Shown here piece by piece: positions 10,383 to 52,322 of a stretch of DNA of 60,287 nt. This DNA is from an uncultured Bacteroidota bacterium (GTDB lineage Bacteria > Bacteroidota > Bacteroidia > Flavobacteriales_D > Parvicellaceae). Location of the stretch: positions 1 to 60,287 of the forward strand of contig CACAYQ010000003.1 of the NCBI GenBank assembly GCA_902536695.1. The letters are read 5' to 3'. Below the pieces are notes generated by a model. It was not told where the DNA came from. It was given only the letters and a program-made list of their open reading frames with translations, and made no database searches. The position numbers and the translations under genes were made by a program. Within the stretch, counting starts at the first letter, position 1. Every line of letters begins with the position of its first letter.

Positions 10383-12144
10383 AGTTTGGGATACACCTTT
10401 ATTTAAAAGGATCTTATGGGCTTCAAAACCTCATCGTTCGTTACTTATAAGGGGAATACTATTGACAGTTTTCCTTGCTTTATTATCGCCCGTTAAACCC
10501 TTTATTATTGGAAAGTTAGTAGGTGATTATGTGAGATTAGGGGATGAAAAGGGTTTATTAATAGGAACTATCTTAGTTATTGGTTTACTTGTCATTGAAT
10601 CTGTTTTTCTAATTGTGGTTTCCTACACTTCTAGCGATTTGGGTCAACGCGTAGTTAAAGATCTTAGAAACCGGTTATTTACGCATATAACTAAATTGAG
10701 ATTAAAATATTTTGATCAAAATCCTATTGGTATGCTTGTTACAAGATCGGTAAGTGATATGGAAACTATTGCTGAAATTTTTTCTCAAGGAATATTAGTA
10801 ATTATAGGTGATTTATTAAAACTATTCGGTGTTTTAATATTTATGTTTTACATCAATTGGAAATTGACACTTTTAGTGCTCATACCCATACCTTTATTAA
10901 TCGTAAGTACAAACATATTTAAGAGGGCTATTAAAAATTCTTTCCAAGAAGTTAGAAAACAAGTATCTTCTCTAAATTCATTTGTTCAAGAACACATTAC
11001 TGGTATGAATGTGGTTCAAATTTTTAGCAGAGAAAATGTAGAGGCAAAAAAATTCAATAAGATTAATCTAGCCCACAAAAAAGCTCACATAAAGGGCATT
11101 ATGGCCTATTCTGTTTTTTTTCCTGTTGTGGAGACGTTGAGTGCTTTATCCATTGCTATTTTAGTTATTTATAGCGTATGGTCAATTTCCTACGGAAACA
11201 CAGACTATGGTACTGTAACTACCGAAATGATGTCATTTATTTTATATGTCCATATGTTATTTAGACCGATTAGAATGTTAGCAGATCGATTTAATACCCT
11301 GCAAATGGGTATGGTAAGTTCGGCTAGGGTTTTTGATCTTCTTGATAATGATGAGATTATTCATCAATCGGGAAATAATCAACTGGAATCATTTAACGGA
11401 CAGATAAGCTTTAAAAATGTTCATTTCAGTTACGATGGACGATCAAAAGTTTTTGATGGCCTATCATTAGATGTTAGATCAGGAGAGACCATTGCTGTGG
11501 TTGGTCCGACAGGTGCAGGTAAAACTTCTCTAATTAATTTAATATCAAGATATTATGAATTTCAAGAAGGAGAAATATTATTAGATGGAATGGATATTAG
11601 ATCCATATCGCTTTCTTCTTTGCGTTCAAAAGTTGCAGTGGTTTTACAAGATGTATTTTTATTTAATACATCCGTACTAGAGAATATAACCCTAGGGAAA
11701 GAAGAAATTGAATTAGAGGAGGTTATAGAGGCTGCTAAAAAAGTGGGCGTACACGGTTTTATTTCTCAGCTTGACGGTAGTTATGAATTTCAAGTTAAAG
11801 AGAGAGGAGGTGTTCTTTCTTCTGGGCAAAGACAACTTATTTCATTTTTGAGGGCATACATTTGTAAGCCAGATCTATTGATTTTGGACGAAGCTACATC
11901 TTCTGTTGATTCTGGTGCTGAAGAGTTGATTCAAAAAGCTACCAAAGTAATAACGAAGGACAGAACTTCTATTATTATTGCACATCGCTTATCAACTATT
12001 AAAAATGCAGATAGAATATTAGTTATTGATAGGGGTAAGATTATCGAAGAGGGCAACCATAATACATTAATTCAAAAGAAAGGTCATTATTTTGATCTTT
12101 ATGAGAATCAATTTCTAAAGGAAGAATCTATACTGCCGTCTTAG
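10369..12144 (+). CDS. ABC exporter, MsbA/multidrug type (half transporter)
   Basis: 591 aa with a fused six-helix transmembrane domain (about residues 20-310) and an ATPase domain. Walker A GPTGAGKTS (379-387), signature LSSGQRQ (483-489), Walker B LLILDEATSSVD (503-514), H-loop IIIAHRLST. Likely a homodimeric lipid or drug exporter in the inner membrane. Overlaps truA by 14 nt (translational coupling) and overlaps the convergent uvrA stop by 4 nt. Confidence 0.92.
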   Translation: MSKSKVWDTPLFKRILWASKPHRSLLIRGILLTVFLALLSPVKPFIIGKLVGDYVRLGDEKGLLIGTILVIGLLVIESVFLIVVSYTSSDLGQRVVKDLRNRLFTHITKLRLKYFDQNPIGMLVTRSVSDMETIAEIFSQGILVIIGDLLKLFGVLIFMFYINWKLTLLVLIPIPLLIVSTNIFKRAIKNSFQEVRKQVSSLNSFVQEHITGMNVVQIFSRENVEAKKFNKINLAHKKAHIKGIMAYSVFFPVVETLSALSIAILVIYSVWSISYGNTDYGTVTTEMMSFILYVHMLFRPIRMLADRFNTLQMGMVSSARVFDLLDNDEIIHQSGNNQLESFNGQISFKNVHFSYDGRSKVFDGLSLDVRSGETIAVVGPTGAGKTSLINLISRYYEFQEGEILLDGMDIRSISLSSLRSKVAVVLQDVFLFNTSVLENITLGKEEIELEEVIEAAKKVGVHGFISQLDGSYEFQVKERGGVLSSGQRQLISFLRAYICKPDLLILDEATSSVDSGAEELIQKATKVITKDRTSIIIAHRLSTIKNADRILVIDRGKIIEEGNHNTLIQKKGHYFDLYENQFLKEESILPS

Positions 12145-27124: not shown

Positions 27125-27520
27125 GGGGCCGATTTTGGATTTGACAGCAAGAGAAATAGTTAAGTAAGCATGTCGAGCGTTGTGAATGGTCTCGTAAAAC
27201 ACAATTCACAAGCCTATAAACGGCAATAACAACTACGCGCTTGCAGCTTAATTACAGATGTAATTAGGCCTAATCTCGCAGATAAGATCTGCCTGACAAG
27301 CTGCCCAGCTATGGTTACCTGTTCAGCGGCTATAGTAATTGGGTATCGTTGGTCTGAACTAAGTGGTGTAGCGTCTTGATGCACTGACAAAAACCTAAAA
27401 GACTAAGGATAAATTGGGGTGTTTGTGCTCAGCTTTATTTCTACAATTAATCACAAACTAAGCATGTAGAAAGTTTAATTGTTCCTTGTTTGGACGAGGG
27501 TTCGAAACCCTCCGGCTCCA
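27125..27520 (+). ncRNA. ssrA: Transfer-messenger RNA (tmRNA)
   Basis: Rescues stalled ribosomes. The acceptor pairs GGGGCCG (27125-27131) with CGGCTCC (27513-27519) and has the G3-U identity pair for alanine; discriminator A27520, CCA not encoded. T-arm GAGGG-TTCGAAA-CCCTC at 27496-27512. The tag frame at 27222-27251 encodes GNNNYALAA then TAA. The gene is intact even though an integrated element abuts it, because the element carries a copy of the 3' end. The last 23 nt recur at the junctions over the next 23 kb. Confidence 0.97.
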
Positions 27521-27521
27521 C
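27498..27521 (+). other. Attachment core J0 in ssrA 3' end (attL-like)
   Basis: The last 23 nt of ssrA plus one C. Identical 24-mers occur at J1, J3, J4 and J6; J8 has one substitution. It is the ssrA-proximal edge of the array, followed by the left-end sequence at 27522-27556 that recurs after J5 and J7. Confidence 0.85.
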
Positions 27522-27556
27522 TATTTGATATGTTGTTAATAATTAAATAAGCAAAA
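27522..27556 (+). repeat. Left-end repeat L0
   Basis: TATTTGATATGTTGTTAATA and the following AATTAAATAAGC recur with few changes at 37736-37770 and 48352-48386, each time immediately after an ssrA-like core. Probably the left arm of an integrating element. Confidence 0.7.
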
Positions 27557-27577
27557 ATAGACAAATAACAGGTTAAT

Positions 27578-27605
27578 ATCTCATATTTGAAAAACAAATG
27601 AGATT
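27578..27605 (+). repeat. Inverted repeat in left arm
   Basis: ATCTCATATTTG, a 5-nt A loop, then CAAATGAGAT: a 10-bp stem with a 2-nt bulge. Lies between the attL core and the integrase. Possible protein-binding site or hairpin; no T-run, so not a terminator. Confidence 0.5.
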
Positions 27606-27631
27606 AAATAGAGACAAATAATTACCTAAAA

Positions 27632-27673
27632 TGTTTGACCTATGTTTGACCTGCTAAATTAAATGTTTGACCT
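27632..27673 (+). promoter_or_regulatory. Three TGTTTGACCT arm repeats before the integrase
   Basis: Exact copies of TGTTTGACCT begin at 27632, 27643 and 27664: spacing 11 and 21 nt, about one and two helical turns. The first pair is the same as in every intact junction. The second includes TATGTTTG, which fits a -7 box. Likely arm-type integrase sites that may also regulate the integrase. Confidence 0.75.
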
Positions 27674-27681
27674 TTTTGCTT

Positions 27682-28887
27682 ATGACAAGAATTAGTTTCA
27701 CTACCCGCTTTTTTATTAAACACCGAAATAACAATGATCATTTATATGTTAGAATCATTGTAAATAGAAAGTCATCAGAAATATCCTTAAAGAGAACAGT
27801 TTATTTAAGACATTGGGATGATAAACGACAACAATTTAAAGGTGGCAGTGAAGTTTCCCAGTCATTAAATCATTATATGAACGATGTTAGAGGAAAGTTA
27901 ATAGCTATTCACACTCATCTAACTAGCAACGAGGAATACTATGATTCCAAAATAATCAAAAACATATTTCTAGGCCATGAACTGAGAAAACATTTTATCA
28001 TAAAAGAGTTTGACATTCACAATGAAAAAATTAAAGTTTTAGCTAATGAAAATAAAGAATATAGCATTGGCACTTATAAAAGATTTAAAACTGCTAGAAA
28101 TCATTTAAATGACTTTATTAGATATAAAGGAAACAATGATCTAGTTTTTGGAGCTATAACTAGTGAATGGATACACGACTATGAATATTTTTTAAAAACT
28201 CAAAAGAATATTAGTCATAATACAAGTCTAAGATATATCAAGCTATTTAAAAAAATATATGGGATTGCTCTTAGAAATGGATGGGTTAAGAAAGATCCTT
28301 TTAATTCATTTAAGATACGATTCCAAACAGTCAACAGAGAACATCTTTCCTTGAATGAAATAAAAACAATTAAAGAAAAAGAACTCCACACTGATCGATT
28401 AAATCAGGTAAGAGATGTCTTTCTTTTTTGTTGTTTAACTGGTTTTAGATATTCTGATGTTAAGGATCTTACCAAACATGATATTCATATTAATACTGAT
28501 GGAAGTAAGAGTATTATCAAGAAAATAAAAAAGACAAAAGGAACAGTTAGAATTCCATTAATAAAACCAGCTTTAGAGATCGTTAATAAATATGAAGATG
28601 ATTTTTATTGTAAAGTAAAAGGGGTACTTCTTCCAGTTGTTAGCAATCAAAATACCAATGCCTACTTAAAAGAGATAGCAACATTATGCGGAATTGAAAA
28701 AAACTTAACCTTTCACATTGCAAGGCACACTTTTGCAACAGTCTTTTTAGAGCTTGGTATTTCAATGGAGTCAGTAAAAGCTATGCTAGGTCATTCTGAT
28801 ATAACAACAACCCAGATTTATGGTAAGATAACTGATAAAAAATTAATGGAAGAAATGGATAATTTAAAAACAAAAATTAAGTTATGA
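27682..28887 (+). CDS. Tyrosine recombinase (integrase)
   Basis: 401 aa, complete. N-terminal arm-binding region, SAM-like core-binding domain (about 105-215) and catalytic domain. All active residues are present: Arg256 in LTGFRYSDV, Lys286 in KTKGTVRIPL, His345-x2-Arg348 in FHIARHTF, His371 in LGHSD, Tyr380 in TTTQIYGKI. I chose the ATG at 27682; a TTG at 27667 is in frame but lies inside the third arm repeat. It sits right beside ssrA, the target, as is usual for tmRNA-integrating elements. It is the only site-specific recombinase intact in the array, so it is the best candidate to act on all junctions. Confidence 0.95.
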   Translation: MTRISFTTRFFIKHRNNNDHLYVRIIVNRKSSEISLKRTVYLRHWDDKRQQFKGGSEVSQSLNHYMNDVRGKLIAIHTHLTSNEEYYDSKIIKNIFLGHELRKHFIIKEFDIHNEKIKVLANENKEYSIGTYKRFKTARNHLNDFIRYKGNNDLVFGAITSEWIHDYEYFLKTQKNISHNTSLRYIKLFKKIYGIALRNGWVKKDPFNSFKIRFQTVNREHLSLNEIKTIKEKELHTDRLNQVRDVFLFCCLTGFRYSDVKDLTKHDIHINTDGSKSIIKKIKKTKGTVRIPLIKPALEIVNKYEDDFYCKVKGVLLPVVSNQNTNAYLKEIATLCGIEKNLTFHIARHTFATVFLELGISMESVKAMLGHSDITTTQIYGKITDKKLMEEMDNLKTKIKL

Positions 28888-29513
28888 TTGAAATAGATTC
28901 AAATACAATAGTTACAGAAATATTTCTAGAATGTTTTAAAGAGTTGCATCTAAAAAAGCAATCAAACCATGAGGATTTAAAGATGTCAGTTCAAAAATAT
29001 TGCGAACAACTTAATTCTGGAAGAGTAAAATATTTAAGAGAAAAGATTTTATTTATCTCTAATAAAATTGATTTAAAATCATTGAATTTAGAACAAAAGA
29101 AATCGTTGTTTTACATTAATACATTCCTTGATTCATATTCACAAATTGTAAAAAAATCAGATTCTGATATTTTAGATGAAATTTTAAATCCTGAATTTGA
29201 AGAATTAAATAAAGCCGAGGATCCAATAAAGCTAGATTTAACTCAAGCAGAAATACTCGGAATTATTGAAGGGATTTTTCAAGTTTTTTCAAAAGAAAAG
29301 ATTAGTTCAACTAAACTTTTTAAGTTTTGCTCTAATAATTTCAATTCAATTAGATCTAAATCAGATATTCAAACTATTGAATCGTACAAGGAATGTTATT
29401 ATGGTAAACTTAATGTCATAGGTAATAAGACTGGTAAACATAAAATTCGTTATGAAAAAGAAAAAATCATTCAAAAGCTTGAAATGATAATTTCTCATAT
29501 AAATACAAATTAG
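28884..29513 (+). CDS. Unknown protein translationally coupled to integrase
   Basis: 209 aa, charged, Lys/Glu-rich, predicted mostly helical; no domain recognised. Its ATG overlaps the integrase stop (ATGA), which suggests equal dosage with the recombinase. The C-terminal part (GKLNVIGNKTGKHKIRYEKEK split around residue 180) is basic. Candidate recombination accessory or DNA-binding factor, by position only. Confidence 0.7.
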   Translation: MIEIDSNTIVTEIFLECFKELHLKKQSNHEDLKMSVQKYCEQLNSGRVKYLREKILFISNKIDLKSLNLEQKKSLFYINTFLDSYSQIVKKSDSDILDEILNPEFEELNKAEDPIKLDLTQAEILGIIEGIFQVFSKEKISSTKLFKFCSNNFNSIRSKSDIQTIESYKECYYGKLNVIGNKTGKHKIRYEKEKIIQKLEMIISHINTN

Positions 29514-29539
29514 TAAGACTTACAGTAAGGTTACTAATT
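29508..29539 (+). promoter_or_regulatory. Inverted repeat, candidate operator
   Basis: AATTAGTAA (29508-29516) and TTACTAATT (29531-29539) form a perfect 9-bp inverted repeat, with a nested CTTAC-A-GTAAG in the centre. It overlaps the stop of the upstream gene and lies 37 nt before the excisionase-like gene. Probably an operator; a weak T-less hairpin is the alternative. Confidence 0.5.
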
Positions 29540-29575
29540 AGTTTCACATTGGTTTATTTGTCTAAAAGAAAGACA

Positions 29576-29851
29576 ATGAATCTTGATTTAATTACAAAAA
29601 ACGACTTAAATGACTTTAAACTTGAACTAGTCAATCTAATCACTGACATTCTAAGTAAAAGTCAACCTAAAAAAAAAGAAATTCTTTCCAACGAAGATGT
29701 AAAAGACCTATTAGGAATTTCTACAGGCACTCTGAGAAAATATAGAATTACAGGAAAAATTTCCTACACCAAAATTGATGGCATTTTGTATTATAAATAC
29801 GAAGATGTTATAAAACTTATTGAGTCTAATAAATTTAACTCATTAGGTTAA
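29576..29851 (+). CDS. Excisionase-like HTH protein (MerR/HTH_17 type)
   Basis: 91 aa. N-terminal helix/coil (about 1-33), then a winged-helix of the HTH_17 type: ILSNEDVKDLLGISTGTLRKY followed by a wing ISYTKIDGILYYKYEDVIKLI. This is the usual form of Bacteroidota element excisionases, which bind att arms and steer the integrase. ATG at 29576 preferred over a non-ATG start further upstream. Confidence 0.8.
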   Translation: MNLDLITKNDLNDFKLELVNLITDILSKSQPKKKEILSNEDVKDLLGISTGTLRKYRITGKISYTKIDGILYYKYEDVIKLIESNKFNSLG

Positions 29852-29867
29852 AAAATATTGATTAGGC

Positions 29868-30030
29868 TCTGGTGAAGACCAACCTGATTGGACATGACCG
29901 AGGGATATACTGAGGTTGACTTTTAAGGGATGTCAAATAACCTTTGGCATCCTAAGAGAGTGTTCCGAAAAACTTAAAACCAACTTGATAATTCGGCAAG
30001 TTCGCCCAGTTATCTTGTATGGGCGAACTG
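29868..30030 (+). other. Structured intergenic element (possible origin or ncRNA)
   Basis: About 160 nt between the excisionase-like and Rep-like genes with at least four helices: TGGT-gaag-ACCA near 29870; CAACCT paired with AGGTTG around it; GGATGTCAAA (29928-29937) with TTTGGCATCC (29943-29952); CCGAA with TTCGG enclosing AACTTG/CAAGTT; and GTTCGCCCA (30000-30008) with TGGGCGAAC (30020-30028). More GC-rich than its surroundings. Could be the double-strand origin nicked by the Rep-like protein, or a folded RNA. It matches no RNA family that I can name. Confidence 0.6.
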
Positions 30031-30047
30031 TACCTAATTGAGAAATA

Positions 30048-30530
30048 ATGATAGGAAAAATATACGAAGAGAACACTAAATCAATACCAAGTATGAAAGA
30101 AGCATATATAAAATGGCTAAATGAAGAAGATTGGATTTTTTTTACAACCCTTACAACTAGTTATGAATTGACACAAAAGTCTGCTAGGAGAGCAGCAGAG
30201 AGATTTCATAAATATTTAAAAAACATATCAGATGATCATTGCAAGATGTTCTTTGTTTCAGAAAAGTTTGAATTAAAAGATGGGTATCATCTTCATGCTT
30301 TAATTAATTTACCAGATAAATTTCATGAGTTTATTTATTTCAATAAAATCATATCATCTTGGCAATTAGCAGCTGGTACATTTAATAAAAAAATGGATGA
30401 AAATGGATTTTATCAAGATCAAAAACCATCGAGAATAGATCTTCAAAAATATGACAAGAAGAAAGGGGCCAAAGGTTATTGTGCCAAATATATTTTTAAA
30501 AAGAATTGCGATTACGATATATTAACATGA
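30048..30530 (+). CDS. HUH-type Rep-like endonuclease
   Basis: 160 aa, a single catalytic domain. The three motifs of rolling-circle Rep proteins are in order: motif I FFTTLTT (31-37), motif II GYHLHALI with His81-x-His83, motif III GYCAKYIFK with Tyr144 and Lys147. No helicase domain follows. Such proteins nick an origin for rolling-circle replication or transfer. It lies 17 nt after the structured element, a likely substrate. The next gene overlaps its stop (ATGA). Confidence 0.78.
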   Translation: MIGKIYEENTKSIPSMKEAYIKWLNEEDWIFFTTLTTSYELTQKSARRAAERFHKYLKNISDDHCKMFFVSEKFELKDGYHLHALINLPDKFHEFIYFNKIISSWQLAAGTFNKKMDENGFYQDQKPSRIDLQKYDKKKGAKGYCAKYIFKKNCDYDILT

Positions 30531-30760
30531 TTAAAGATTTATCAATAAAGGAAAGAAAGGCTATAAAAAAGTATTTAGTTCATGGAGATTTAAAAAGAGT
30601 AGCTAAAAAACTCAATTTATCCAACTCAGCAATACATGGTTTTTTCAATGGAAAGTCAAATAATCCAGAAATTTTAGATGAGTTGCTTAAATTATTGAGG
30701 AAATATGCTAAAAACAGGGAAGATATTGGTACTATTTTGGGCAAAATAAATGCAGAATAA
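30527..30760 (+). CDS. Small HTH-like protein
   Basis: 77 aa, start ATG at 30527 overlapping the Rep-like stop. KKYLVHGDLKRVAKKLNLSNSAIHGFFNGK reads as a helix-turn-helix of the homeodomain/XRE kind (about residues 14-42), followed by a leucine-rich helix. Probably a regulator of the element. Confidence 0.65.
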   Translation: MIKDLSIKERKAIKKYLVHGDLKRVAKKLNLSNSAIHGFFNGKSNNPEILDELLKLLRKYAKNREDIGTILGKINAE

Positions 30761-30836
30761 GTGAAGAAACAATACAGAGTTTACTCAAAAAATATTCAGA
30801 ATTAGCAAATAAATACTTTAAAAAATATGTAGCCTA

Positions 30837-31526
30837 CTATCTAAATACAGCCTTAAGACGCTTAAGTAATTCAGAAAGTACTTTGTCATCTAGTTCTAAA
30901 TCAAAGTTGTCAGCTACATTACTATGAAACCTTATTGCATCTTTAATATATTTTTCTTGACGTTCATAATTAAAACGTTTCCAAGATTTATTGTTTTTTT
31001 TACTGTTATGAAATTTTAATAATAATTGAATATTATCTGGATGATGATTTCCCTGTTCTTTTTTATTTAGAAGGGCTTGTGCATGATCAAGTTCAAAGTC
31101 CAAGCTAAAAAAATCTTTAAAAGCTTTTTGAATATTTCTAAATTCATCTAACCTGTATAACTCAAAAATTTTTAAGTTGTCTTTAGCTTGACTTATAATT
31201 TCAGAACGTTTGATTGGCTCAATATCGTCATTTACATCTCTTTCTAAATTGATTTGTTGTTCTTGATCTGTTAGGTATTTAACTTTTCTTGGTCGTTCAC
31301 TTTCGTCTATAATTACATTCTTGAACCCACCTGCTGAAAGTCTTGATGAAATTCTTGCAGCAATTTCTCTTAGTCCAGTTGTATCATTTTTCTGCCCCTT
31401 AGCTTCTTTTTCAGCTTTTTTATATAAATCTGGATACATTTCGCTTACTTTCTGAGCCCATTCAGAAACGGTAATAAAATCATTAAATGTTTTTAAAGCC
31501 TCTGCATATTTTTCATAAATTTTCAT
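30837..31526 (-). CDS. HNH endonuclease
   Basis: 229 aa. The C-terminal HNH nuclease core has FELDHAQALLNKK (His148), HHPDNIQLLLKFHN (Asn165, His173) and KKNNKSW. The N-terminal half is helical and unrecognised, with a possible DNA-recognition role. Overlaps the unknown gene upstream by 4 nt. Resembles type II restriction-like HNH enzymes, but no methyltransferase is present. Candidate defence or mobility nuclease. Confidence 0.75.
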   Translation of the reverse strand: MKIYEKYAEALKTFNDFITVSEWAQKVSEMYPDLYKKAEKEAKGQKNDTTGLREIAARISSRLSAGGFKNVIIDESERPRKVKYLTDQEQQINLERDVNDDIEPIKRSEIISQAKDNLKIFELYRLDEFRNIQKAFKDFFSLDFELDHAQALLNKKEQGNHHPDNIQLLLKFHNSKKNNKSWKRFNYERQEKYIKDAIRFHSNVADNFDLELDDKVLSELLKRLKAVFR

Positions 31527-32071
31527 TTTAATAGTCCTGTCTTCAGTGCTTCTTGTTTAATAGTATCTAAATGCTTTATAAAGTCCTTACATAACCACAT
31601 TAATTTTACAGGGTCTTTTATGTCACAGAAGTCAGTCAGTTTACCGCAAACCTGTCGGGAAGGTACAGGTGTCTCAGAGTTCTTGTGGTCAATAAATATT
31701 TTGTCGTAGGCCTGCCAGCGACTGTCAACTAAGTCACCATATTCTTCGTTTGTCTCGATCTCAATGTCTACCTGCTCCAATTGGCTGAGCATTCCTTTTC
31801 CGAGTTTACCTTGATTGAAAACTTCTCCGATAATTATCTCTGAAAGTGTTGGTTGTGAGGAGAACAGTCGGAACCCCAACTGTGTCGTCCAAGCACGAAA
31901 GACGAATAGTTCCGCTATTGTTTTCTTTTTATTGTCAACACCATCCAAAAAGTCCGAATAATGTCCACTGTAGTTCATTAGGTAGAAGTGTTGTCCAAGT
32001 TTGATTCTCTCATTTATGTTGTCTGCTGTCAAGGTGTCTTGCTTGCCGAAAAGTTTTCCTAAAAGTCCCAT
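31523..32071 (-). CDS. Unknown protein paired with HNH endonuclease
   Basis: 182 aa. N-terminus MGLLGKLFGKQDTL is short and amphipathic, not a signal peptide. No domain recognised. More GC-rich than the integrase module beside it. Overlaps the HNH gene by 4 nt and starts 17 nt downstream of an attC-like hairpin, so the pair may be a captured cassette. Function unknown; immunity or sensor partner is only a guess. Confidence 0.65.
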   Translation of the reverse strand: MGLLGKLFGKQDTLTADNINERIKLGQHFYLMNYSGHYSDFLDGVDNKKKTIAELFVFRAWTTQLGFRLFSSQPTLSEIIIGEVFNQGKLGKGMLSQLEQVDIEIETNEEYGDLVDSRWQAYDKIFIDHKNSETPVPSRQVCGKLTDFCDIKDPVKLMWLCKDFIKHLDTIKQEALKTGLLK

Positions 32072-32087
32072 TTTCTATTTTTTAATG

Positions 32088-32144
32088 TGCGATAACGTTT
32101 TGGCTAAGCTGCGTTTTAATGCAGTTTAGGTTTTGTTGGCAGTA
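32088..32144 (-). repeat. attC-like site between cassettes
   Basis: On the minus strand TGCCAAC ... GTTATCGCA flank a central stem CTAAACTGC/GCAGCTTAG (9 bp, one G-T) with an 8-nt loop. Terminal AAC...GTT with an imperfect central hairpin is the layout of integron attC sites. It contains the stop of the kinase gene and precedes the 182-aa gene, the position expected of an attC. The boxes do not meet the full RYYYAAC/GTTRRRY consensus. Confidence 0.5.
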
Positions 32145-32809
32145 GTGTTTTTTATTATCTTCAAATTTTTAAGTTCAGTATTATCAATTACCAAATCTGC
32201 TTGTTCTTCGGGTTTATTCTCGTCAATATAGATTTTTGAAGCTTTATGGTATCTATTGTCATATTTCTCTTTGGTCGCTTTTAATCCGCCCAAAAGTTTA
32301 ATATCTCTATTCATTCCACGAAGCAAAGCTGTTTTGAAATCTGTTTTTAAATAAATTTTCAAATCCCAATGATTTCTATATTTTGGCTTAAATAAATATG
32401 CCCCATCCGTTATAAGAACAGTTTCGTTGTCAATTTTGGTTGGTTTTAAATTCAAATACTCATCTGTTTCCAAATCATGAGTTGCTTTTGTAATATTTGG
32501 AATTTCAGATTGTGATGATTTTAGTACTTTCTCAACAAAGGCTACTTCATCATAGGAATCTTCATAATAACCTTTAGCGGAATCACGTCCTTGTTTATAT
32601 CGGACTTCTTTATTAAAGTGAAAACCATCAATTGAAATCTGTTTCGCATTTATATTTTCAGAATTTAGATATTCTGTAAGTTTTCCCGCAAAAATAGTTT
32701 TCCCTGTTCCTTCAATTCCATTTATCGCAACTCTGATAGGTTTAGATTTTTTCGCCCTAATTGAGACTATGCTATTTTTAATCAGTTCTAAAGTTTCTGT
32801 TTCGTTCAT
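32126..32809 (-). CDS. Uridine kinase-like P-loop kinase
   Basis: 227 aa. Walker A GIEGTGKT (residues 31-38), ISIDGFHFNKE (the Asp/His motif of uridine and phosphoribulokinase-like enzymes), VLITDGAYLF and the lid LLRGMNRDIKLLGG. A nucleoside or related small-molecule kinase; exact substrate unknown. It is bounded on both sides by GTTGGCAGTA/TACTGCCAAC attC-like edges and so looks like an integron-type cassette. Confidence 0.75.
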   Translation of the reverse strand: MNETETLELIKNSIVSIRAKKSKPIRVAINGIEGTGKTIFAGKLTEYLNSENINAKQISIDGFHFNKEVRYKQGRDSAKGYYEDSYDEVAFVEKVLKSSQSEIPNITKATHDLETDEYLNLKPTKIDNETVLITDGAYLFKPKYRNHWDLKIYLKTDFKTALLRGMNRDIKLLGGLKATKEKYDNRYHKASKIYIDENKPEEQADLVIDNTELKNLKIIKNTTANKT

Positions 32810-32819
32810 CTGTTATATT

Positions 32820-32911
32820 ACTGCCAACGAGGGAATATACGTATTACGTTTATTTCCTTTATAAATATACATGAAAACTTAAATAAACGTAAATAGCATT
32901 AAGTTATGGTC
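32820..32911 (-). repeat. Second attC-like site
   Basis: ACTGCCAAC at one end and GTTATGG at the other enclose a strong stem, TTACGTTTATTT with AAATAAACGTAA (12 bp), around a loop of about 25 nt. Same GCCAACGAGGGAATA edge as seen degraded at 37604-37621. It lies between the kinase start and the arm repeats of J1. Confidence 0.5.
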
Positions 32912-32915
32912 AAAA

Positions 32916-33008
32916 TGTTTGACCTATGTTTGACCTCTGGATTTTTAGATTTGTAACCAACTGGAAATAAACAGATTACAAGTAGGGTTCGAAACCCTCC
33001 GGCTCCAC
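32916..33008 (+). repeat. Junction J1 (attR-like, intact)
   Basis: Two TGTTTGACCT repeats from 32916 and 32927, TTGTAAC/gattacaa inverted repeat, and the 24-nt ssrA-derived core at 32985-33008, 69 nt from the first repeat. Right boundary of the integrase-bearing cassette C1. Confidence 0.88.
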
Positions 33009-33033
33009 TAATTATTGATTTATTAGTTGTTTT

Positions 33034-33828
33034 TTATTTACCTAACTTTAATATTCTAAATGCTCCTTGAATTACCAATACAAAAACGATTGTTCCTATA
33101 ATTAAATCAGGCGTACTTGAATTTAGCCAATTTACCAAAAGTCCAGCTATTATAACTCCAAAATTGATAATTACATCATTAGAGGTGAAAATCATACTCG
33201 CTTTCAAATGAGCTTCTTCTTTATTATTTGACTTTTGTAAAATGTAAAGACAAATTCCGTTTGCAATAAGTGCGAAAACCGAAACGATAATCATTGTCGA
33301 AAAGTCAGGAAGTTTCTCGTCTACAATAAATCGCCTTAAAACTTCCGAAAATCCGATAACAGCAAGTATTATTTGAAAATATCCAGCAAGTTTTGCTATC
33401 CGCTTTTTTCTTGTTAAAGTTCCACCAACTGCAAACAAACTAATTCCGTATACAAAGCTGTCGGCAAGCATATCTAGACTGTCTGCAACTAATCCCATTG
33501 ATTTTGAGATTATTCCAGTTGTCATTTCGATTAGAAAAAAGGCAAAGTTTATCAATAGAATTGTCCAGAGCAGTTTTTTCTGGTTTGAGTTTTCATTAAA
33601 TTCAGTTTGGTAGGTTTTTTTAGTAGAGATTTTCTTACCACCTAAATTCAGTTCAATAATAGACTTTTCGATTTGGTCAATTTCTCCGTTATGAAAAACA
33701 GTCAATTTTCGGTTTGGTATATCAAAAGTCAAATTCGCAATATTTGAAATTCCATCCAGTTTCATACGGATTAGATTTTCCTCCGAAGGACAATCCATTT
33801 TAGTAATCTCAAATATTGATTTATTCAT
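33034..33828 (-). CDS. Cation diffusion facilitator-like transporter
   Basis: 264 aa. An N-terminal HMA-like domain without its CxxC (FEITKMDCPSEENLIRMKL, about residues 5-70), then five to six helices with the CDF signature LVADSLDMLADSFVYG (about 115-130) and FTSNDVIINFGV. Probably exports a divalent metal such as zinc or cobalt. Sole gene of cassette C2, reading toward ssrA. Confidence 0.85.
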   Translation of the reverse strand: MNKSIFEITKMDCPSEENLIRMKLDGISNIANLTFDIPNRKLTVFHNGEIDQIEKSIIELNLGGKKISTKKTYQTEFNENSNQKKLLWTILLINFAFFLIEMTTGIISKSMGLVADSLDMLADSFVYGISLFAVGGTLTRKKRIAKLAGYFQIILAVIGFSEVLRRFIVDEKLPDFSTMIIVSVFALIANGICLYILQKSNNKEEAHLKASMIFTSNDVIINFGVIIAGLLVNWLNSSTPDLIIGTIVFVLVIQGAFRILKLGK

Positions 33829-33948
33829 TTAGTTTCTTGGTTTTTTGATGTTAAACAAAAGGAGGTAATAAAATTGATGGTTTTACTTTTTTTAAAGATA
33901 TAAGCAAAAAATCATTAGAGTTAAATAAGAACAATTAGTTAGTAAAAA

Positions 33949-33992
33949 TGTGTGACCTATGGGTTTTTATATTTGTAATTCACTAGAAATAA
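33949..33992 (+). repeat. Junction relic J2 (arm without core)
   Basis: TGTGTGACCTAT, then gggtttttatatttgtaa and ctagaaata, a decayed single arm. The core is missing; the DNA runs directly into a foreign coding fragment. Confidence 0.55.
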
Positions 33993-34155
33993 AATTAATG
34001 TGGCAACGGCTCAATCCACTTTTAGTTCTTTAAATGAATCTCAAGACCAAGATATGCAAAATCAGTTAGCTTCTTTTGAAAAAGAATTCAACTCTTGGAA
34101 AGGTGATAGAGAACAGATAGACGATGTATGTGTAATGGGAGTTAGAATAACTTAA
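33979..34155 (+). pseudogene. C-terminal fragment of a SpoIIE-type phosphatase
   Basis: An open frame to the TAA at 34155 ends FNSWKGDREQIDDVCVMGVRI, characteristic of the C-terminus of Bacteroidota TPR-SpoIIE (PP2C-like) phosphatases. Only the last about 50 residues exist, with no start or catalytic domain, and the 5' edge merges with the J2 arm. A captured or left-over gene end, not functional. On the + strand, unlike the neighbouring cargo. Confidence 0.65.
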
Positions 34156-34196
34156 TGTACAAATTGATTTAAATAAGCACATTTTATGTCATAAAA

Positions 34197-34289
34197 TGTT
34201 TGACCTATGTTTGACCTCTGGATTTTTAGATTTGTAACTAATTGGAAATAAACAGGTTACAAGTAGGGTTCGAAACCCTCCGGCTCCAC
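34197..34289 (+). repeat. Junction J3 (intact)
   Basis: TGTTTGACCT twice (34197, 34208), perfect inverted repeat TTGTAAC (34232-34238)/GTTACAA (34256-34262), core 34266-34289 identical to the ssrA end. Confidence 0.9.
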
Positions 34290-34325
34290 TATAGAATCTT
34301 ACACTACAATTTTTTTTAATGGACA

Positions 34326-36572
34326 CTAATTTTTGTATACCGTTTTATCAAGGTATTCACTTATTTGATCAAACGAAAATGAAATTGTACTACCATTATC
34401 TACACTTCTGCAAGCATTAGATAAATTCCAATCAGCAAAAAAACTGATACCATCATTTGAAATACTGATTTCTAGCTCATTCATGTCATATTTTAAATCT
34501 TCAGGCAGTATTCCAAAACAATCTGTTGATTCATTAAAATATTTTTCATAATCTTCTCTGATCAGTTTATTAATTTCTTTGATTAAATTTAGTTGTTTAG
34601 CATTAAAAATTTGGGAATTATTAACCATTAAATATTTGTCGTCAATTTTTAAGTAAAGTATTTGACTTTTTTCCAAATATCCTCTGTAATCCTCGACTTC
34701 AGTGGTTGTTACAATTCTTATATTTTCATACTCACAAGTTGTTACAGTTTTTTCATTATTGAGGTATCCTTCAATCAAATCATTATATTCTTCTTTTGAG
34801 TAATCTTTTTCAGTACACATTACTTGTTTTTCTTGACGACTAACTTCGAACTTCAATTTTTTTAAATTTTTAGAATTTTTCCAATATCCATAAAGAATAC
34901 TTCCTTTAATAGATCCTTCAAAAATTCCAGTATTATCTCCTTTTTGATTAAATTCTTCAATTGTAAAAATTCCATCATAAATTTCTCCTGCTAATTGCAA
35001 AAATGTGTTGCTCGTCTTATATCTGTATCTTCCTCCAATTTTGTTGTCGGAGCTATTTAAATACATTTCAATTGCATATTTATCATCAATTAAGCCTAGA
35101 TACTTTCCTTCAATTATGTTGTTTGAAAATATTCCTTCATTTTTTATAATGTACGACACTTTCCAAGGCTTATACTTAAAAACTCCTTTTTCTTTTTTTC
35201 TATAATTACCATATAAAAAATGCGTTCCTGGTTTAGCTGGAACTACTATACTATCTGTGGAATATCCACTAAACTCTATCACGTTTAATTTATTTTGTTG
35301 CCTTTTCGGTAATAAATATTGCGAAGAGTCATCAACCCAATAACTTATGTCAATATATTCTGGGTAATCTTTTTTGAATATTGGAATTTTAGTAAAACCC
35401 TTATCAGTATTCACAGTAAAAGTTCTAGTATTTGAGTCTATTGGTCCACTCTTGAGAAGATCTTCAATAAATCTTGAAGGTAAAGTAGCTCTTAGATGTA
35501 TTTTATCAAGTGCTGTAGTAAGCGCTTCTTGAATTTGTAACAAAAAATAATTGGGGTTTTCATTTTTATCAATAGAAAGTATAGTTAATATTTCTTTAAT
35601 AGCATCTTTGTCCTCTGAATTAATCTTAGAAGTCATAATTTGCAAATTTAAAATCGAGTCTATTGCTTTTTCATTATAATCTCCGCTTTTAACAATTTTT
35701 CTTAGAAGTTTAGTGTCAAAACTATAGAAGTAATTTTGGTCCAAAGATGTATTTTTTACATAAAAATTATTTGCTTGATAATTTGAAAGATATAGAACAA
35801 GATCATATTTAAGCTTATCTATTAAATACATGGTAGTATCTAATTTTAAATCAATTTTTTGTCTTTTTATTTTTTTTAAAAGCTTGGTGGTGTAACTGTT
35901 AGAGTCAAAAGTTTTAAAATCAAATTCAGAAATTGTATATGGTCTGATTATTAAGCTGGAAATTAATTTATCAAAATTTAGATTATTATCAGAAACTAAT
36001 GCTGTGCTTAATTGTTCTGAAAATTCAATTAGTTGATCTTCCAAGATATAAAAATCAGTTTGGTCGCATGTATTTCTAAGTCCGTTTGTTAGTTTATTAA
36101 GGTCTTTTTGATTTTTTCTAAGAGCTTTGTTAAAGGATTCAAGTTTTTTTGGGTTTTGACTAATTTCCCAAATGTTTTGTAACTGAGAAAAAAGAGTAGA
36201 CTGTTCTAATAAAATAAAATATTCATTCCAAATTTTATGGCAATCACTTAATTGTTCATCACTTAATAAATTAACCTCTTTATTATAATTACTTACAATA
36301 AAATTATTCAAGTTTGCACAACTATGAAATATACTATCACTAACAATTTTTAGGTATTGTATGTAACGAAAAGACTCTGTGCCCATCCCTTTCATAGCCT
36401 GTAAACTGTATTCAGTTTGGATATCAGACATAAGCTTGTAATTATAATTTAAGCGATTATTAATTTCCTCGTTGAGTTTTAAATCTAGTTCAACAAAATC
36501 ATTAGGATTGGAATTACAACCTAGTAAGCTAAAAAATATTACAAAAGCTACACTAAAAATTACTTTATTCAT
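34326..36572 (-). CDS. Large lipoprotein of unknown function
   Basis: 748 aa. Lipobox SLLGC near residue 19. The first about 330 residues are helical; a later part repeats a beta motif (NKIGGRYRYKTSNTFLQLAGEI, GSIKGSILYGYWKN), and the C-terminus resembles a DUF3298-like fold only weakly. Sole gene of cassette C3. Function unknown. Confidence 0.75.
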   Translation of the reverse strand: MNKVIFSVAFVIFFSLLGCNSNPNDFVELDLKLNEEINNRLNYNYKLMSDIQTEYSLQAMKGMGTESFRYIQYLKIVSDSIFHSCANLNNFIVSNYNKEVNLLSDEQLSDCHKIWNEYFILLEQSTLFSQLQNIWEISQNPKKLESFNKALRKNQKDLNKLTNGLRNTCDQTDFYILEDQLIEFSEQLSTALVSDNNLNFDKLISSLIIRPYTISEFDFKTFDSNSYTTKLLKKIKRQKIDLKLDTTMYLIDKLKYDLVLYLSNYQANNFYVKNTSLDQNYFYSFDTKLLRKIVKSGDYNEKAIDSILNLQIMTSKINSEDKDAIKEILTILSIDKNENPNYFLLQIQEALTTALDKIHLRATLPSRFIEDLLKSGPIDSNTRTFTVNTDKGFTKIPIFKKDYPEYIDISYWVDDSSQYLLPKRQQNKLNVIEFSGYSTDSIVVPAKPGTHFLYGNYRKKEKGVFKYKPWKVSYIIKNEGIFSNNIIEGKYLGLIDDKYAIEMYLNSSDNKIGGRYRYKTSNTFLQLAGEIYDGIFTIEEFNQKGDNTGIFEGSIKGSILYGYWKNSKNLKKLKFEVSRQEKQVMCTEKDYSKEEYNDLIEGYLNNEKTVTTCEYENIRIVTTTEVEDYRGYLEKSQILYLKIDDKYLMVNNSQIFNAKQLNLIKEINKLIREDYEKYFNESTDCFGILPEDLKYDMNELEISISNDGISFFADWNLSNACRSVDNGSTISFSFDQISEYLDKTVYKN

Positions 36573-36627
36573 CTCAATTTTACTTGAACAATAAAATTAT
36601 ATAAAATATCAAATCATTTCACTTAAA

Positions 36628-36720
36628 TGTTTGACCTATGTTTGACCTCCGGATTTTTCGTTTTGTAACTAGCTGGTAATAAATAGGTTACAAGTAGGGT
36701 TCGAAACCCTCCGGCTCCAC
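36628..36720 (+). repeat. Junction J4 (intact)
   Basis: Arm repeats at 36628 and 36639, TTGTAAC/GTTACAA, core 36697-36720 identical to the ssrA end. Spacing 69 nt. Confidence 0.9.
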
Positions 36721-36785
36721 TTAGTGATTTACTTAAGAAAAACGACTAAATTAAACTTTGTAGTGCGTATCCCGAAGGGTATGCA

Positions 36786-37583
36786 CTATACAAAATGTTG
36801 TAGCCAGTTTCTTTTCATTAAAAGTGTATTCTTATTAATTTCAAACTTGATTCCTTTTTTTAATTTGTATAGAACTGTTAACCCAATAATAAAAACAACT
36901 GTAATAATTCTAAAAATATTCGCATAAGTTCCCCCAAACGCATTATCGGAAACAGAGAACATCATCCAAAATAAATTCATAAAGAGATGTAAAAAAATGG
37001 AAACCCATAGGTTGTAATTCCACTCTACGTATACCCAAGCAAATAAAATCGCTCCTAAAAACGTAGTTAAGAAAATCCCGACTAACGTTGTAAAATCTTG
37101 ACTTTGATATAAGTGACCTAAGGCAAATACTAATGCACCAAATACAATTGACAGAATAAATCCAATATTCGTAAATCTATATATTTGTCCAAATAAAATT
37201 CCTCTAAAAAATAATTCTTCTACAAATGCTGCAATTAAAGCACCCATTAGAATTCTTGTAAAGGTTAATTCTGTATTAAAGTCAAAAAGAACAGCATAAC
37301 CTATAAGCATTGGAAATGAACATATTAAAGCAAATAAAAATCCTTTTCCTATTGATCCATTTAGTCCCAATACATCAGGGAAGTTTTTGAATTTATGAAT
37401 TATTCCAACCCCTGTGAATAGAGGAATTCCGATAATCAGATATGTTATAAAATGACAAACTCCAATATTACTTATAAATTCATTTAACAATTTACGTATG
37501 TCAGAAAAGAACATCTGTTGGAGTGCATAATAGACTCCAAAGAACATAATCGTTATCAATACTACTTTTATTGTTTTATTCAT
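36786..37583 (-). CDS. CPBP-family intramembrane glutamic protease
   Basis: 265 aa, seven to eight membrane helices. Motif 1 VEELFFRGILFG has the EExxxR catalytic pair; FALGHLYQ and FLHLFMNLFW supply the later histidines. These proteases or CaaX-like enzymes often accompany bacteriocin or stress functions. Sole gene of cassette C4. Confidence 0.88.
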   Translation of the reverse strand: MNKTIKVVLITIMFFGVYYALQQMFFSDIRKLLNEFISNIGVCHFITYLIIGIPLFTGVGIIHKFKNFPDVLGLNGSIGKGFLFALICSFPMLIGYAVLFDFNTELTFTRILMGALIAAFVEELFFRGILFGQIYRFTNIGFILSIVFGALVFALGHLYQSQDFTTLVGIFLTTFLGAILFAWVYVEWNYNLWVSIFLHLFMNLFWMMFSVSDNAFGGTYANIFRIITVVFIIGLTVLYKLKKGIKFEINKNTLLMKRNWLQHFV

Positions 37584-37619
37584 TTAGTTTTTTTTCAAAA
37601 ATTGGCTACAACGAGGGAA

Positions 37620-37735
37620 TAAACGTAATACGTTTATTTCTTCACTTTTAAGTATGTTTTAAATTTATAAACAAAACGAATAAGTCCTTTCAAATCAGAG
37701 TGAAAAGAGTTCGAAATCTGTCCCTTTGGGTCCAC
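37620..37735 (+). repeat. Junction J5 (type B)
   Basis: Palindrome TAAACGTA-A-TACGTTTA at 37620-37636, then a core-like segment 37707-37735 that begins GAGTTCGAAATCTG and ends GGGTCCAC. It is followed by a copy of left-end repeat L0. Palindrome-to-core distance is 87 nt, the same as in J7. No TGTTTGACCT arm. Confidence 0.7.
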
Positions 37736-37770
37736 TATTTAATATGTTGTTAATAATTAAATTAGCAAGG
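37736..37770 (+). repeat. Left-end repeat L5
   Basis: Copy of the 27522-27556 sequence (tatttaatatgttgtt, then aataattaaattagc), directly after the J5 core. Confidence 0.7.
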
Positions 37771-37775
37771 GGGGT

Positions 37776-38120
37776 TTAATTCTTTACATATCTCATTCCC
37801 TCAATCCCTCTATTAAGTTTTACTTCAATTTTTACAAGTTTATTATTTTCATTAATAAGTTTTACTATTTCAAAATTATTAACTAAAATTCTTATTTCAT
37901 CTTTAGAAGCTAATTGCGATTCTTGAATAAGTTCACTAGTATTTTTATTTTCTTTTTTAAGTTTGATTGCTAAGTTTGATTTGTTTATAAGCTCAGCTGA
38001 ATAGTTTTTTTTATTTTCTTCACCAAGAATAAATGTTTCGTTTGGTGGAATTGATAATTCTGATTTTAGAGTTGTACAAGAGAACGCTAAAACAAAAGTT
38101 ACAAAAATCAATCTCTTCAT
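37776..38120 (-). CDS. Small lipoprotein
   Basis: 114 aa with lipobox LAFSC at residues 11-15. Lys/Asn/Glu-rich, a central helix, and a C-terminal beta segment. No domain recognised. One of three small exported proteins in cassette C5. Confidence 0.6.
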   Translation of the reverse strand: MKRLIFVTFVLAFSCTTLKSELSIPPNETFILGEENKKNYSAELINKSNLAIKLKKENKNTSELIQESQLASKDEIRILVNNFEIVKLINENNKLVKIEVKLNRGIEGMRYVKN

Positions 38121-38200
38121 TTCATAAGTTTTAAACCATTAAAGTAAAAAAAAGTTAAGAAAGCAAAGGGAGGTTAGAGATATAGCTGGAAATATTAAAC

Positions 38201-38566
38201 TTAATTTTCACCTGAAAAAACATAATGATTATTTAAATTGTCATAGTAGACTAATGATAAATATAAACCAGTTGCAGTTCCTCCAATTTCTAATTCCAAG
38301 TTTGTATATGAATCACCATAATGGAAGTAAGTAACAGAACCAAAATATCTTTGTTTTTCAATTTCTATTTCATTGATATTAAAATAATCGCCTTCTATAG
38401 AAATTCTTTTATTGGATATTTCAGAAATTATAATATTGGAGTTCATGTATTTGATAGAGTCATTAATTGATATTTGTCCAATATAAGTTCCAGCAACCTT
38501 GTCAGAGTATTTATTACAACTTGCCAAGATCAACGTAGAAAATACAAATACTATAAGTTTGTTCAT
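38201..38566 (-). CDS. Small lipoprotein
   Basis: 121 aa; lipobox LILASC ends at residue 16. Predicted small beta-sandwich (GTYIGQISIND, YFGSVTYFHYGDS). Unrecognised. In cassette C5. Confidence 0.6.
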   Translation of the reverse strand: MNKLIVFVFSTLILASCNKYSDKVAGTYIGQISINDSIKYMNSNIIISEISNKRISIEGDYFNINEIEIEKQRYFGSVTYFHYGDSYTNLELEIGGTATGLYLSLVYYDNLNNHYVFSGEN

Positions 38567-38643
38567 TTTATGAGTTTTAAAATATTTTAATAAAAATTAA
38601 TCATATATTATTATGTAATTGTTAATCCAATTTTATAAATTAT

Positions 38644-38856
38644 TTAATTGACAGCATAAGATATTTGAATATTACCCAAACAAGGGTGAGTTATTGCTAT
38701 TTGTTCTTCTATATTTCCATGGTCTAAATTGCAAAAAGGTATCTCCCATTTAGTAGAATCACTGCCATATATGGAGCTATAAGAATGAACACTTATAGTT
38801 GATGGAATTAAACATTGTAGAGCAAGTAACAGAATTAATGTTTTATAGGTCTTCAT
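38644..38856 (-). CDS. Small secreted protein
   Basis: 70 aa with an N-terminal signal segment (TLILLLALQCLIPSTIS) and a short mature part with two cysteines. Nine nt downstream of the XRE regulator on the same strand. Might be a small peptide of unknown role or a decayed remnant. Confidence 0.45.
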   Translation of the reverse strand: MKTYKTLILLLALQCLIPSTISVHSYSSIYGSDSTKWEIPFCNLDHGNIEEQIAITHPCLGNIQISYAVN

Positions 38857-38865
38857 TTCTAAGCT

Positions 38866-39075
38866 TTATTTGCCTTCTAAACTAAATTCTAAAATGTCAC
38901 CTGGTTGGCATTCCAAAACTTTACATATTGACTCAAGTGTGGTAAATCTAATTGCTTTTGCCTTACCCTTTTTTAAAATAGATAAATTAGCCATGGTTAT
39001 TCCTACTTTTTGGGAAAGTTCAGTAAGGCTCATTTTTCTTTTAGCTAAGACAATATCTAAATTCACAATAATCAT
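38866..39075 (-). CDS. XRE-family regulator (YozG-like)
   Basis: 69 aa, almost all HTH: MSLTELSQKVGITMANLSILKKGK, then RFTTLESICKVLECQPGDILEF. The YozG/Cro type that is paired with DUF2975 membrane proteins, as here (3 nt apart). Confidence 0.88.
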   Translation of the reverse strand: MIIVNLDIVLAKRKMSLTELSQKVGITMANLSILKKGKAKAIRFTTLESICKVLECQPGDILEFSLEGK

Positions 39076-39078
39076 AGG

Positions 39079-39627
39079 TTAAATGGTTAAATCATTAAGT
39101 TTTTTCATTTTCGCTCCCTGAGAAAATATATGACTTAATACCCATAGGATCAAAGCAAAAATCGGTAGGCTTAATGAAATATTATCTGCCTGAAAATTTA
39201 AGTTTGAGGACAAACTATCGTTAAAACTACTATCAATGGTAATTAAAAACTCAGAAAAAATACCAACTAAAAAAATGGATAATAGTAAATATGAAATCCA
39301 CTTTAAAAATTTGATTGTTTCAATTTCAAAGTATTTACCATTGTATACCAAATTCATGAATTTTGAAAAAAAATGAGTAATTAATATAACTGGAGTGATA
39401 GCTAATGCAGTAATTATTAGTAGCCATAATTTCGATAAAAATGAAACTTCATTAAAGTTTTTATAGTTATTATCACCAAATTTTATGTCACCCTCCAAAT
39501 TGCCTCCGAACAAAAGATAAATAATAACAAATAATATAATTATAGATACCCCAACAGTGAACCAAAAAGATACTTTTGATAAGGTGTTTAGTAGTTTTAT
39601 ACTTCTAGGAATATGATTGTTTTTCAT
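39079..39627 (-). CDS. DUF2975 membrane protein
   Basis: 182 aa with four membrane helices (SFWFTVGVSIIILFVIIYLL, LWLLIITALAITPVILI and two more). DUF2975 proteins are coupled to small XRE regulators and may sense membrane state; the pairing is well known, the signal is not. First gene of cassette C5 on the minus strand. Confidence 0.82.
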   Translation of the reverse strand: MKNNHIPRSIKLLNTLSKVSFWFTVGVSIIILFVIIYLLFGGNLEGDIKFGDNNYKNFNEVSFLSKLWLLIITALAITPVILITHFFSKFMNLVYNGKYFEIETIKFLKWISYLLLSIFLVGIFSEFLITIDSSFNDSLSSNLNFQADNISLSLPIFALILWVLSHIFSQGAKMKKLNDLTI

Positions 39628-39757
39628 CTTAAATATTAATTTTAGTAAAGATAATAAAATTATTGATAAACAATAAATATTTATTATAAAACAATAAATT
39701 ACATAATGAATTTACTCTTAAAAATAGGGTTATATAAGCACATTTAGCGACTTAAAA

Positions 39758-39850
39758 TGTTTGACCTATGTTTGACCTCCGGATTTTCGATTTTGTAACT
39801 AATTGGAAATAAATAGGTTACAAGCAGGGTTCGAAACCCTCCGGCTCCAC
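39758..39850 (+). repeat. Junction J6 (intact)
   Basis: Arm repeats at 39758 and 39769, TTGTAAC/GTTACAA, core 39827-39850 identical to the ssrA end. It is preceded by ataagcacattt, also found before J3. Confidence 0.9.
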
Positions 39851-40060
39851 CTTGTGGGACAGTTTCAATTTTTTCGAAAACTGTCCCTTATTTTTTTCTT
39901 CTAAGTTCTTGTCTGTCTGTAAGATATATCTAAGTGCATCGTTGATTCTAGGTGTTCGACATTTTTTTCCATCAAATTGTAGTTTTTCTGGAAAAATCGA
40001 ACTTATAATTTCCTGTTTTTGAGCCACAGTTGATTTATCATGTGGGCAATATTTTCTTCA
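39851..40060 (-). pseudogene. Relic of a serine recombinase C-terminus
   Basis: A minus-strand frame encodes QEIISSIFPEKLQFDGKK and RTPRINDALRYIL, the tail typical of Bacteroidota large serine recombinases (SIFPEKL...YRTPRxNxA). No start or catalytic domain; the frame opens right after a stop at 40060 and then runs into the J6 core, where it reads VEPEGFEP, the antisense of the tmRNA end. A leftover of another mobile element. Confidence 0.6.
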
Positions 40061-49067: not shown

Positions 49068-49197
49068 ATTAAATACTGGTTTTTTATAAAAATAATAAAT
49101 TTATTAGTAAACAATAAAAAATTGTTATTTGACAATAAACTTTTGATTTAATTAATTTTTTTCGGATCGAAAATTAAATATACTTAACTCCGTAAAA
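49068..49197 (-). repeat. Leader repeat, copy 1
   Basis: About 130 nt upstream of the SnoaL-like gene are nearly identical to 53499-53628, including attagtaaacaataaaaaat, tgttatttgacaa and taattaatttttttcg. It holds the minus-strand promoter region of the gene and abuts the J8 arm. Confidence 0.8.
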
Positions 49198-49290
49198 TGT
49201 TTGACTTATGTTTGACTTCCGGATTTTTCAGTTTGTAACTATCTGAATATAAATAGGTTACAATTAGGGTTAGAAACCCTCCGGCTCCAC
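49198..49290 (+). repeat. Junction J8 (near-intact)
   Basis: Arm repeats are TGTTTGACTT at 49198 and 49209 (one change each). TTGTAAC/GTTACAA kept. Core 49267-49290 has one C-to-A change (gggttagaaa). Spacing still 69 nt. Confidence 0.87.
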
Positions 49291-49358
49291 CTAAGATACA
49301 TAACACGGATAAAAATTGGAAAATTTCATGTTGGCAATCCTTTAATCTTGTTTTGTAC

Positions 49359-50615: not shown

Positions 50616-50687
50616 ATTTTAATTTTAAAATTTAATCCGAATTTCCAATTTTTTTTAAATGTAGATTTAATCCAGTACAATGCAAAA

Positions 50688-50803
50688 TGTTTGACCTATG
50701 TTTGACCTCCAGATTTTCAGATTTGTAACTATCTGGAAATAAACTGGTTAAAAGCAGGGTTCGAATCCACCTGTGGATCATGAAATAAACCCTCCGGCTC
50801 CAC
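50688..50803 (+). repeat. Junction J9 (core split by an insert)
   Basis: Intact arms at 50688 and 50699. The core starts 69 nt on at 50757 as gggttcgaa, is broken by about 23 nt including TCCACctGTGGA, and resumes as accctccggctccac to 50803. Confidence 0.82.
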
Positions 50804-50816
50804 TATTATTTCTTAA

Positions 50817-51695: not shown

Positions 51696-51737
51696 AAGTA
51701 AGCAATAAATATAAAAAAACTAACCAGCAGCACCATT

Positions 51738-52232: not shown

Positions 52233-52293
52233 TAATCAAATTTATAAATCAATAGGCAAATAGATGTATATAGGTATATTTTATGTTATTAAA

Positions 52294-52322
52294 TGTTTGA
52301 CCTATGTTTGACCTCGGGATTT
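52294..52322 (+). repeat. Junction relic J10 (arms only)
   Basis: Two exact TGTTTGACCT repeats (52294, 52305) then cgggattttt; after this the match stops. No core where it is expected, near 52363. Confidence 0.75.

Follow-up and report, generated by a model that had tools for sequence, protein, structure and literature searches.

Kazlauskas et al. (2019; PMC6668415) described integrated plasmids and other integrated elements with HUH Reps and mentioned among them a cluster from Bacteroidetes whose members are unassigned. The conjugative element ICEBs1, which has a relaxase, replicates by rolling circle once excised and has a stem-loop single-strand origin (PMC4595007). We analyzed 60,287 nucleotides of DNA (the window) from an uncultured bacterium of the family Parvicellaceae, on a contig that belongs to a Bacteroidota-like genome bin estimated to be 62% complete. 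The window contains an element that resembles those of Kazlauskas et al. in having an HUH Rep, no virion genes, site-specific integration, and direct-repeat bounds, but differs from them in that the Rep is a bare nuclease of 130 to 160 amino acids (aa) without a helicase and in that its xis and rep are separated by a long folded region with covariation. The arrangement, a folded intergenic region near an HUH gene that we propose as the origin, is like that of ICEBs1, although the present unit has no conjugation genes.

The Rep itself can be compared with two groups of viral proteins. Like the SIRV1 ORF119 Rep (PDB 2X3G), it is a minimal single-tyrosine HUH nuclease without a helicase; however, that relative comes from a linear rudivirus genome whose ends are hairpins, whereas the present rep belongs to an element with an integrase, which would form a circle on excision. 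A PF23343 match and structural matches in BFVD relate it to microvirus replication initiators and other PF23343 proteins, from which it differs in having half their length and in belonging to a unit without capsid or other virion genes. A Rep beside its origin is already known in general, but the folded origin structure proposed here looks uncatalogued.

The Rep-bearing unit at the tmRNA gene

The tmRNA gene (27125 to 27523, plus strand, as are the other parts of the unit) was identified by Rfam model RF00023 (160.8 bits), by ARAGORN, and by the repeats of its 3' end. That 3' end forms the left attachment site (core, 27498 to 27522), and its next repeat forms the right one (32985 to 33009), so that the smallest version of the Rep-bearing unit spans about 5.49 kb. 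The arm-type repeat ATGTTTGACCTATGTTTGACCT (27631 to 27652) precedes a tyrosine integrase (27667 to 28887; PF00589, PF13102, and PF17293, all above cut-off), whose stop is overlapped by ORF2 (28884 to 29513). ORF2 had no family match; in a layout comparison it occupies the slot of a 250- to 320-aa ORF in four tRNA islands described below. An excisionase-like helix-turn-helix protein (HTH_17; 29576 to 29851), recognized by PF12728 above cut-off and by excisionase PHROGs, is followed by the folded region (29852 to 30047) and by the 160-aa minimal HUH Rep (30048 to 30530), assigned from its motifs, profile matches, and an AlphaFold model. The Rep stop codon is overlapped by a gene for a small helix-turn-helix protein (30527 to 30760) with a weak HTH_3 match. 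Inserted at the tmRNA 3' end, the element thus has the order integrase, ORF, xis, folded region, Rep, and an integrase, an xis, and flanking att repeats, the marks of an integrative element, were all found in the window.

More copies of the tmRNA 3' end lie near 34.3, 36.7, 39.8, 49.3, and 50.8 kb, and ATGTTTGACCTATGTTTGACCT is found a short way upstream of most copies. Since tmRNA 3'-end repeats bound the Rep-bearing unit and further copies follow it, this unit is the one with the integrase in a row of otherwise integrase-less cassettes. No Rep is carried by the cassettes downstream of it. The first-pass annotation of this DNA had suggested a nicking origin that lets "an excised cassette or element" replicate; an element agrees with the integrase, the xis, the att repeats, and the delimited islands, but the Rep belongs to the integrase unit and not to a cassette.

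Several other observations concern the array. The integrase-less gene cassettes stand in a row at 27498 to 39862 and 49190 to 52320, with separators of about 110 nt that combine the arm repeat with the tmRNA 3'-end core, so that the tmRNA gene has an array like that of an integron next to it. One additional site of the cassette type (L015) is on contig C39 of the same genome. A degenerate att-like copy at 37722 to 37768, 89% identical over 47 nt to the tmRNA end and the DNA directly after it, is possibly a former chromosomal right end that was moved by the array. At 50750 to 50810, an insertion (GGTTCGAATCCACCTGTGGATCATGAAATAAACCCTCCGGCTCCACT) splits an att core, and a partial copy of the arm repeat (AATGTGTGACCTATGGGTTTTTA) within a cassette at 33900 to 34160 is perhaps a decayed site.

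The Rep protein and its relatives

Single-protein searches for relatives of the Rep returned nothing from the genome, viral, plasmid, and phage collections, and relatives were reached only through family or profile searches. A search with PF23343 (replication-associated protein) led to a protein 39% identical to the window Rep (L022), a two-row profile reached small Reps from a different class of the same phylum, and a seven-row profile added two intact Reps and one broken Rep in the window's own taxonomic order. In the resulting 10-member alignment, W29, F32, T34, E72, H81, H83, Y144, and K147 show no variation or almost none, and the motifs FxT (F32 and T34), HxH (H81 and H83), and YxxK (Y144 and K147) are invariant in all 10 homologs. 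The second tyrosine of the window's YCAKY varies among the homologs. PF23343 matches 8 of the 10 family members; the window Rep, at 27.5 bits, falls just below the cut-off of 27.8.

The family profile found SIRV1 ORF119 (E value, 3.5e-6) as its best sequence match among solved structures. The AlphaFold model of the window Rep (pLDDT, 80; pTM, 0.75) gave 63 viral matches in BFVD at an E value of ≤0.001, the named ones being replication proteins and the best having an E value of 2e-12 and 31% identity, and gave weak matches in the PDB, with the parvovirus NS1 nuclease at the top. With 160 aa and no ATPase domain, the protein has no helicase. A CRESS-type Rep, which would have a C-terminal SF3 helicase domain, was ruled out on these grounds, and a classical relaxase (MOB) did not fit because the catalytic tyrosine is C-terminal to HxH, the Rep order, and not N-terminal. 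The earlier description of a Rep-like protein with motif I, HxH, and YxxK but no helicase is borne out, and, judged by sequence and predicted structure, the product is a genuine minimal HUH nuclease of the rolling-circle initiator type.

Some of the relatives have features of their own. A small ORF directly follows the Rep in two int-xis-Rep elements (L028, 8274 to 8621, and L104, 1211 to 1459); the first is a DUF5681 protein, and the second is similar to it by eye. At L037 (1366 to 2068) and also at L109, a small Rep has a structured 319-nt upstream region (z, -4.3) and an adjoining divergent tyrosine recombinase. The Rep homolog at L033 (1345 to 1989), like that at L056, has an additional N-terminal segment that looks like a helix-turn-helix; its surroundings are a restriction-modification island that also has resolvase-like genes, and there is no tyrosine integrase close by. 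The element also matched DNA in genome G460 (L007), but inside a coding region, and that match was taken as chance.

The folded region and its counterparts

Between the end of the xis-like ORF (29851) and the start of the Rep-like ORF (30048) is a gene-free gap of 196 nt that we propose as the origin region. Folded as RNA, the gap reached -60.8 kcal/mol, whereas its shuffles averaged -40.8 (z, -4.99; none of 200 shuffles folded as well), and DNA folding parameters gave a z of -4.14. This strong fold is not chance. Upstream stretches of 60 nt that fold as well were found at 2 of the 53 ORF starts in the window, and the Rep start is probably one of the two. A long-range closing stem (about 29858 to 29866 paired with 30034 to 30044) encloses several hairpins and extends the folded part to about 29858 to 30044, so that the fold noted in the first-pass annotation is real but its length, put at about 160 nt, was slightly short.

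Four structures stand out in the region. Hairpin A (29862 to 29887), which has nine pairs, an asymmetric 3/1 inner loop, and a GRAG loop, is common to the window and the tRNA islands. A long central hairpin is predicted at 29919 to 29961, an AACTTG/CAAGTT inverted repeat lies at 29982 to 30002, and the last hairpin within the closing stem is a perfect 10-bp hairpin (29999 to 30029). Its arms are GTTCGCCCA (30000 to 30008) and TGGGCGAAC (30020 to 30028) with an extra A-T pair (29999/30029), its 11-nt loop is GTTATCTTGTA, and it ends 18 to 19 nt before the Rep ATG, in agreement with the perfect hairpin first placed 20 nt ahead of that start.

The inverted repeat and the 10-bp hairpin contain candidate nick sites (a caret marks the putative cut). 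CTTG^ATA (29984 to 29990), inside the inverted repeat, is the sole CTTGATA on the plus strand of the unit; the second candidate, ATCTTG^T, is in the loop of the 10-bp hairpin, and each of these sequences occurs once on that strand, both within the folded region. They resemble the nick sites of phiX174 (CAACTTG^ATA) and pC194 (ATCTTG^ATA). This likeness was noticed post hoc, and CTTGATA occurs 21 times in the whole window on both strands; therefore, we treat it as a lead only. The sequence around the proposed sites is not conserved across the homologs.

Counterparts of the region were found in four islands of another Bacteroidota class (L051 to L054), each with an integrase, an ORF, an xis, about 300 nt, and a Rep of about 130 aa, followed by cargo (HNH nuclease, ResIII helicase, AbiEii-like ATPase, and reverse transcriptase). 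Each island ends at a tRNA gene, and a 16- to 21-bp repeat of the tRNA 3' end precedes the integrase, which gives island sizes of 8.4 to 10.3 kb. The islands are compact, with a near-constant front module and variable defense-like cargo, and in L054 the reverse transcriptase (10384 to 11519) adjoins a helix-turn-helix gene. Their xis-Rep regions fold with z scores of about -7 to -8.6 in the sense direction and -5 to -9 in the antisense direction. The covariance check proposed in the first-pass annotation turned up compensatory changes: 14 of 66 consensus pairs are changed on both sides yet still paired, among four sequences of which two are close.

A plain local alignment of the whole region between the window and the islands was not significant, its best version being matched by 188 of 2,000 shuffles. 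Hairpin A, just downstream of the xis stop in the window and the islands, reads TTAGG-CTC-TGGT-GAAG-ACCA-A-CCTGA (26 nt) in the window and TCGGG-CAC-TGCT-GGAG-AGCA-A-CCCGA in the islands, with an identical asymmetric inner loop and all nine pairs kept, two of them by double change and one as U-G. Nowhere else in 531,664 background bases, from which other members of the group had been left out, did a site combine the inner seven pairs with 18 of 25 identities, and about one per 5 Mb is expected in random sequence. The chance of such a match in the gap is about 4e-5, a figure that is truly weaker since the motif was picked after looking. A covariance model built without the window ranked hairpin A fourth in the 60-kb window (12.7 bits; E value, 0.056), or about 1e-4 for the gap alone. 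We conclude from these comparisons that hairpin A of the window and that of the islands are likely homologous. The same pattern in 45 viral contigs was counted as chance, as these contigs had no convincing Rep (best E value with the Rep profile, 0.81), and a MAFFT pairing of the islands' TCGA hairpin with the window's CTTGATA stretch was set aside, since the hairpin order differs.

The folded region accompanies the Rep in the window and the four islands but is not universal beside family Reps. In L022/L028 and L104, xis and Rep follow each other in the same order but are just 47 to 74 nt apart, and there is no comparable folded region; thus, their origin would be elsewhere or much smaller. In most homologs, a hairpin ends about 18 to 35 nt ahead of the Rep start, with differing sequences, and CTTGAACCTTCT directly follows this hairpin in both L103 and L104. 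A recurring pre-Rep hairpin of varied sequence is expected for an origin recognized by its own Rep and also for a leader that controls rep translation.

Function of the folded region

We consider it reasonably probable that the Rep and the folded region upstream of it are the rolling-circle initiator and origin region of an integrative plasmid-like element at tmRNA. Gene order, att repeats, catalytic motifs, folding, covariation in the counterparts, and one shared hairpin are the observed basis, and we favor an origin because a Rep adjoins the region, because HUH Reps have been described in other integrated elements (PMC6668415), and because excised ICEBs1, which has a stem-loop origin, replicates by rolling circle (PMC4595007). 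We infer excision, nicking, copying, and the exact nick site as follows. The integrase and Xis would excise the element as a circle, and the Rep would nick one strand at a hairpin in the folded region, either at 29987/29988 (CTTG^ATA) or in the ATCTTG^T loop, and remain attached through Tyr144. A host helicase and polymerase would then copy the circle, and the remaining hairpins may be Rep-binding sites, a single-strand origin, or both. Of the nicking origin first suggested, the identity of the Rep and its link to the structured region are supported by homologs in another class and by compensatory changes.

The main rival, a possible but rather doubtful one, is that the region acts in cis as an RNA leader: in the int-ORF2-xis-rep transcript it would limit Rep synthesis through attenuation or control of translation, and the origin would be at another place, for instance within rep. 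The region is probably part of the operon transcript, as a leader would be, since 29852 to 30047 contains no Bacteroidota -7 promoter motif, and the pre-Rep hairpin of most homologs and the U-G wobble in hairpin A also suit RNA. However, no U-run follows the last hairpin, Rfam gave no match (E values up to 5 were admitted for the window region, up to 1 for the island loci), and 200 to 300 nt is large for simple translational control. The folds themselves point both ways. G-U pairs make up 3% in L035 and 10 to 16% in the others, including 16% of pairs in the window fold. The low share in L035 and the similar folding of both strands in the islands fit DNA, whereas the higher share elsewhere suits RNA, as does the poorer folding of the window's antisense strand (z, -2.5).

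Very unlikely, in our judgment, is a mobilization relaxase with its oriT, in which the nicked strand would be transferred by a helper conjugation system and not replicated in the cell. The chemistry is identical, integrative mobilizable elements often have one HUH protein with an adjoining oriT, and int/xis islands with cargo suit that class; nevertheless, HxH followed by tyrosine is the reverse of classical relaxases, the relatives are Reps, and neither the unit nor any of the four islands showed an accessory or coupling protein. We give still less credence to a decayed or domesticated, nonfunctional module whose fold is left over: remnants of the family exist (in L055 the Rep is broken and no integrase lies close by) and the window assembly is fragmentary, but the integrase, xis, and Rep are all open with intact motifs, and the fold is strong. 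A retron was rejected because the unit has no reverse transcriptase, and an IS200/IS605 or REP-associated transposase was rejected on the YxxK Rep motif and on the presence of an integrase and att repeats in place of transposon ends.

Returning to the element as an origin-bearing one, it is conceivable, but improbable, that a tmRNA cassette-collecting integrase carries its own minimal rolling-circle initiator and origin and that excised cassette circles multiply before reinsertion or transfer. Integrons are not known to multiply excised circles in this way, and the element would owe its unusual character to this connection with the cassette row, if true. More generally, integrated elements of two Bacteroidota classes pair a minimal helicase-free HUH Rep with a specific folded region that covaries. 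If the circles replicate, this would explain how small islands with defense-like cargo, or cassettes next to tmRNA, can be amplified without conjugation or virion genes.
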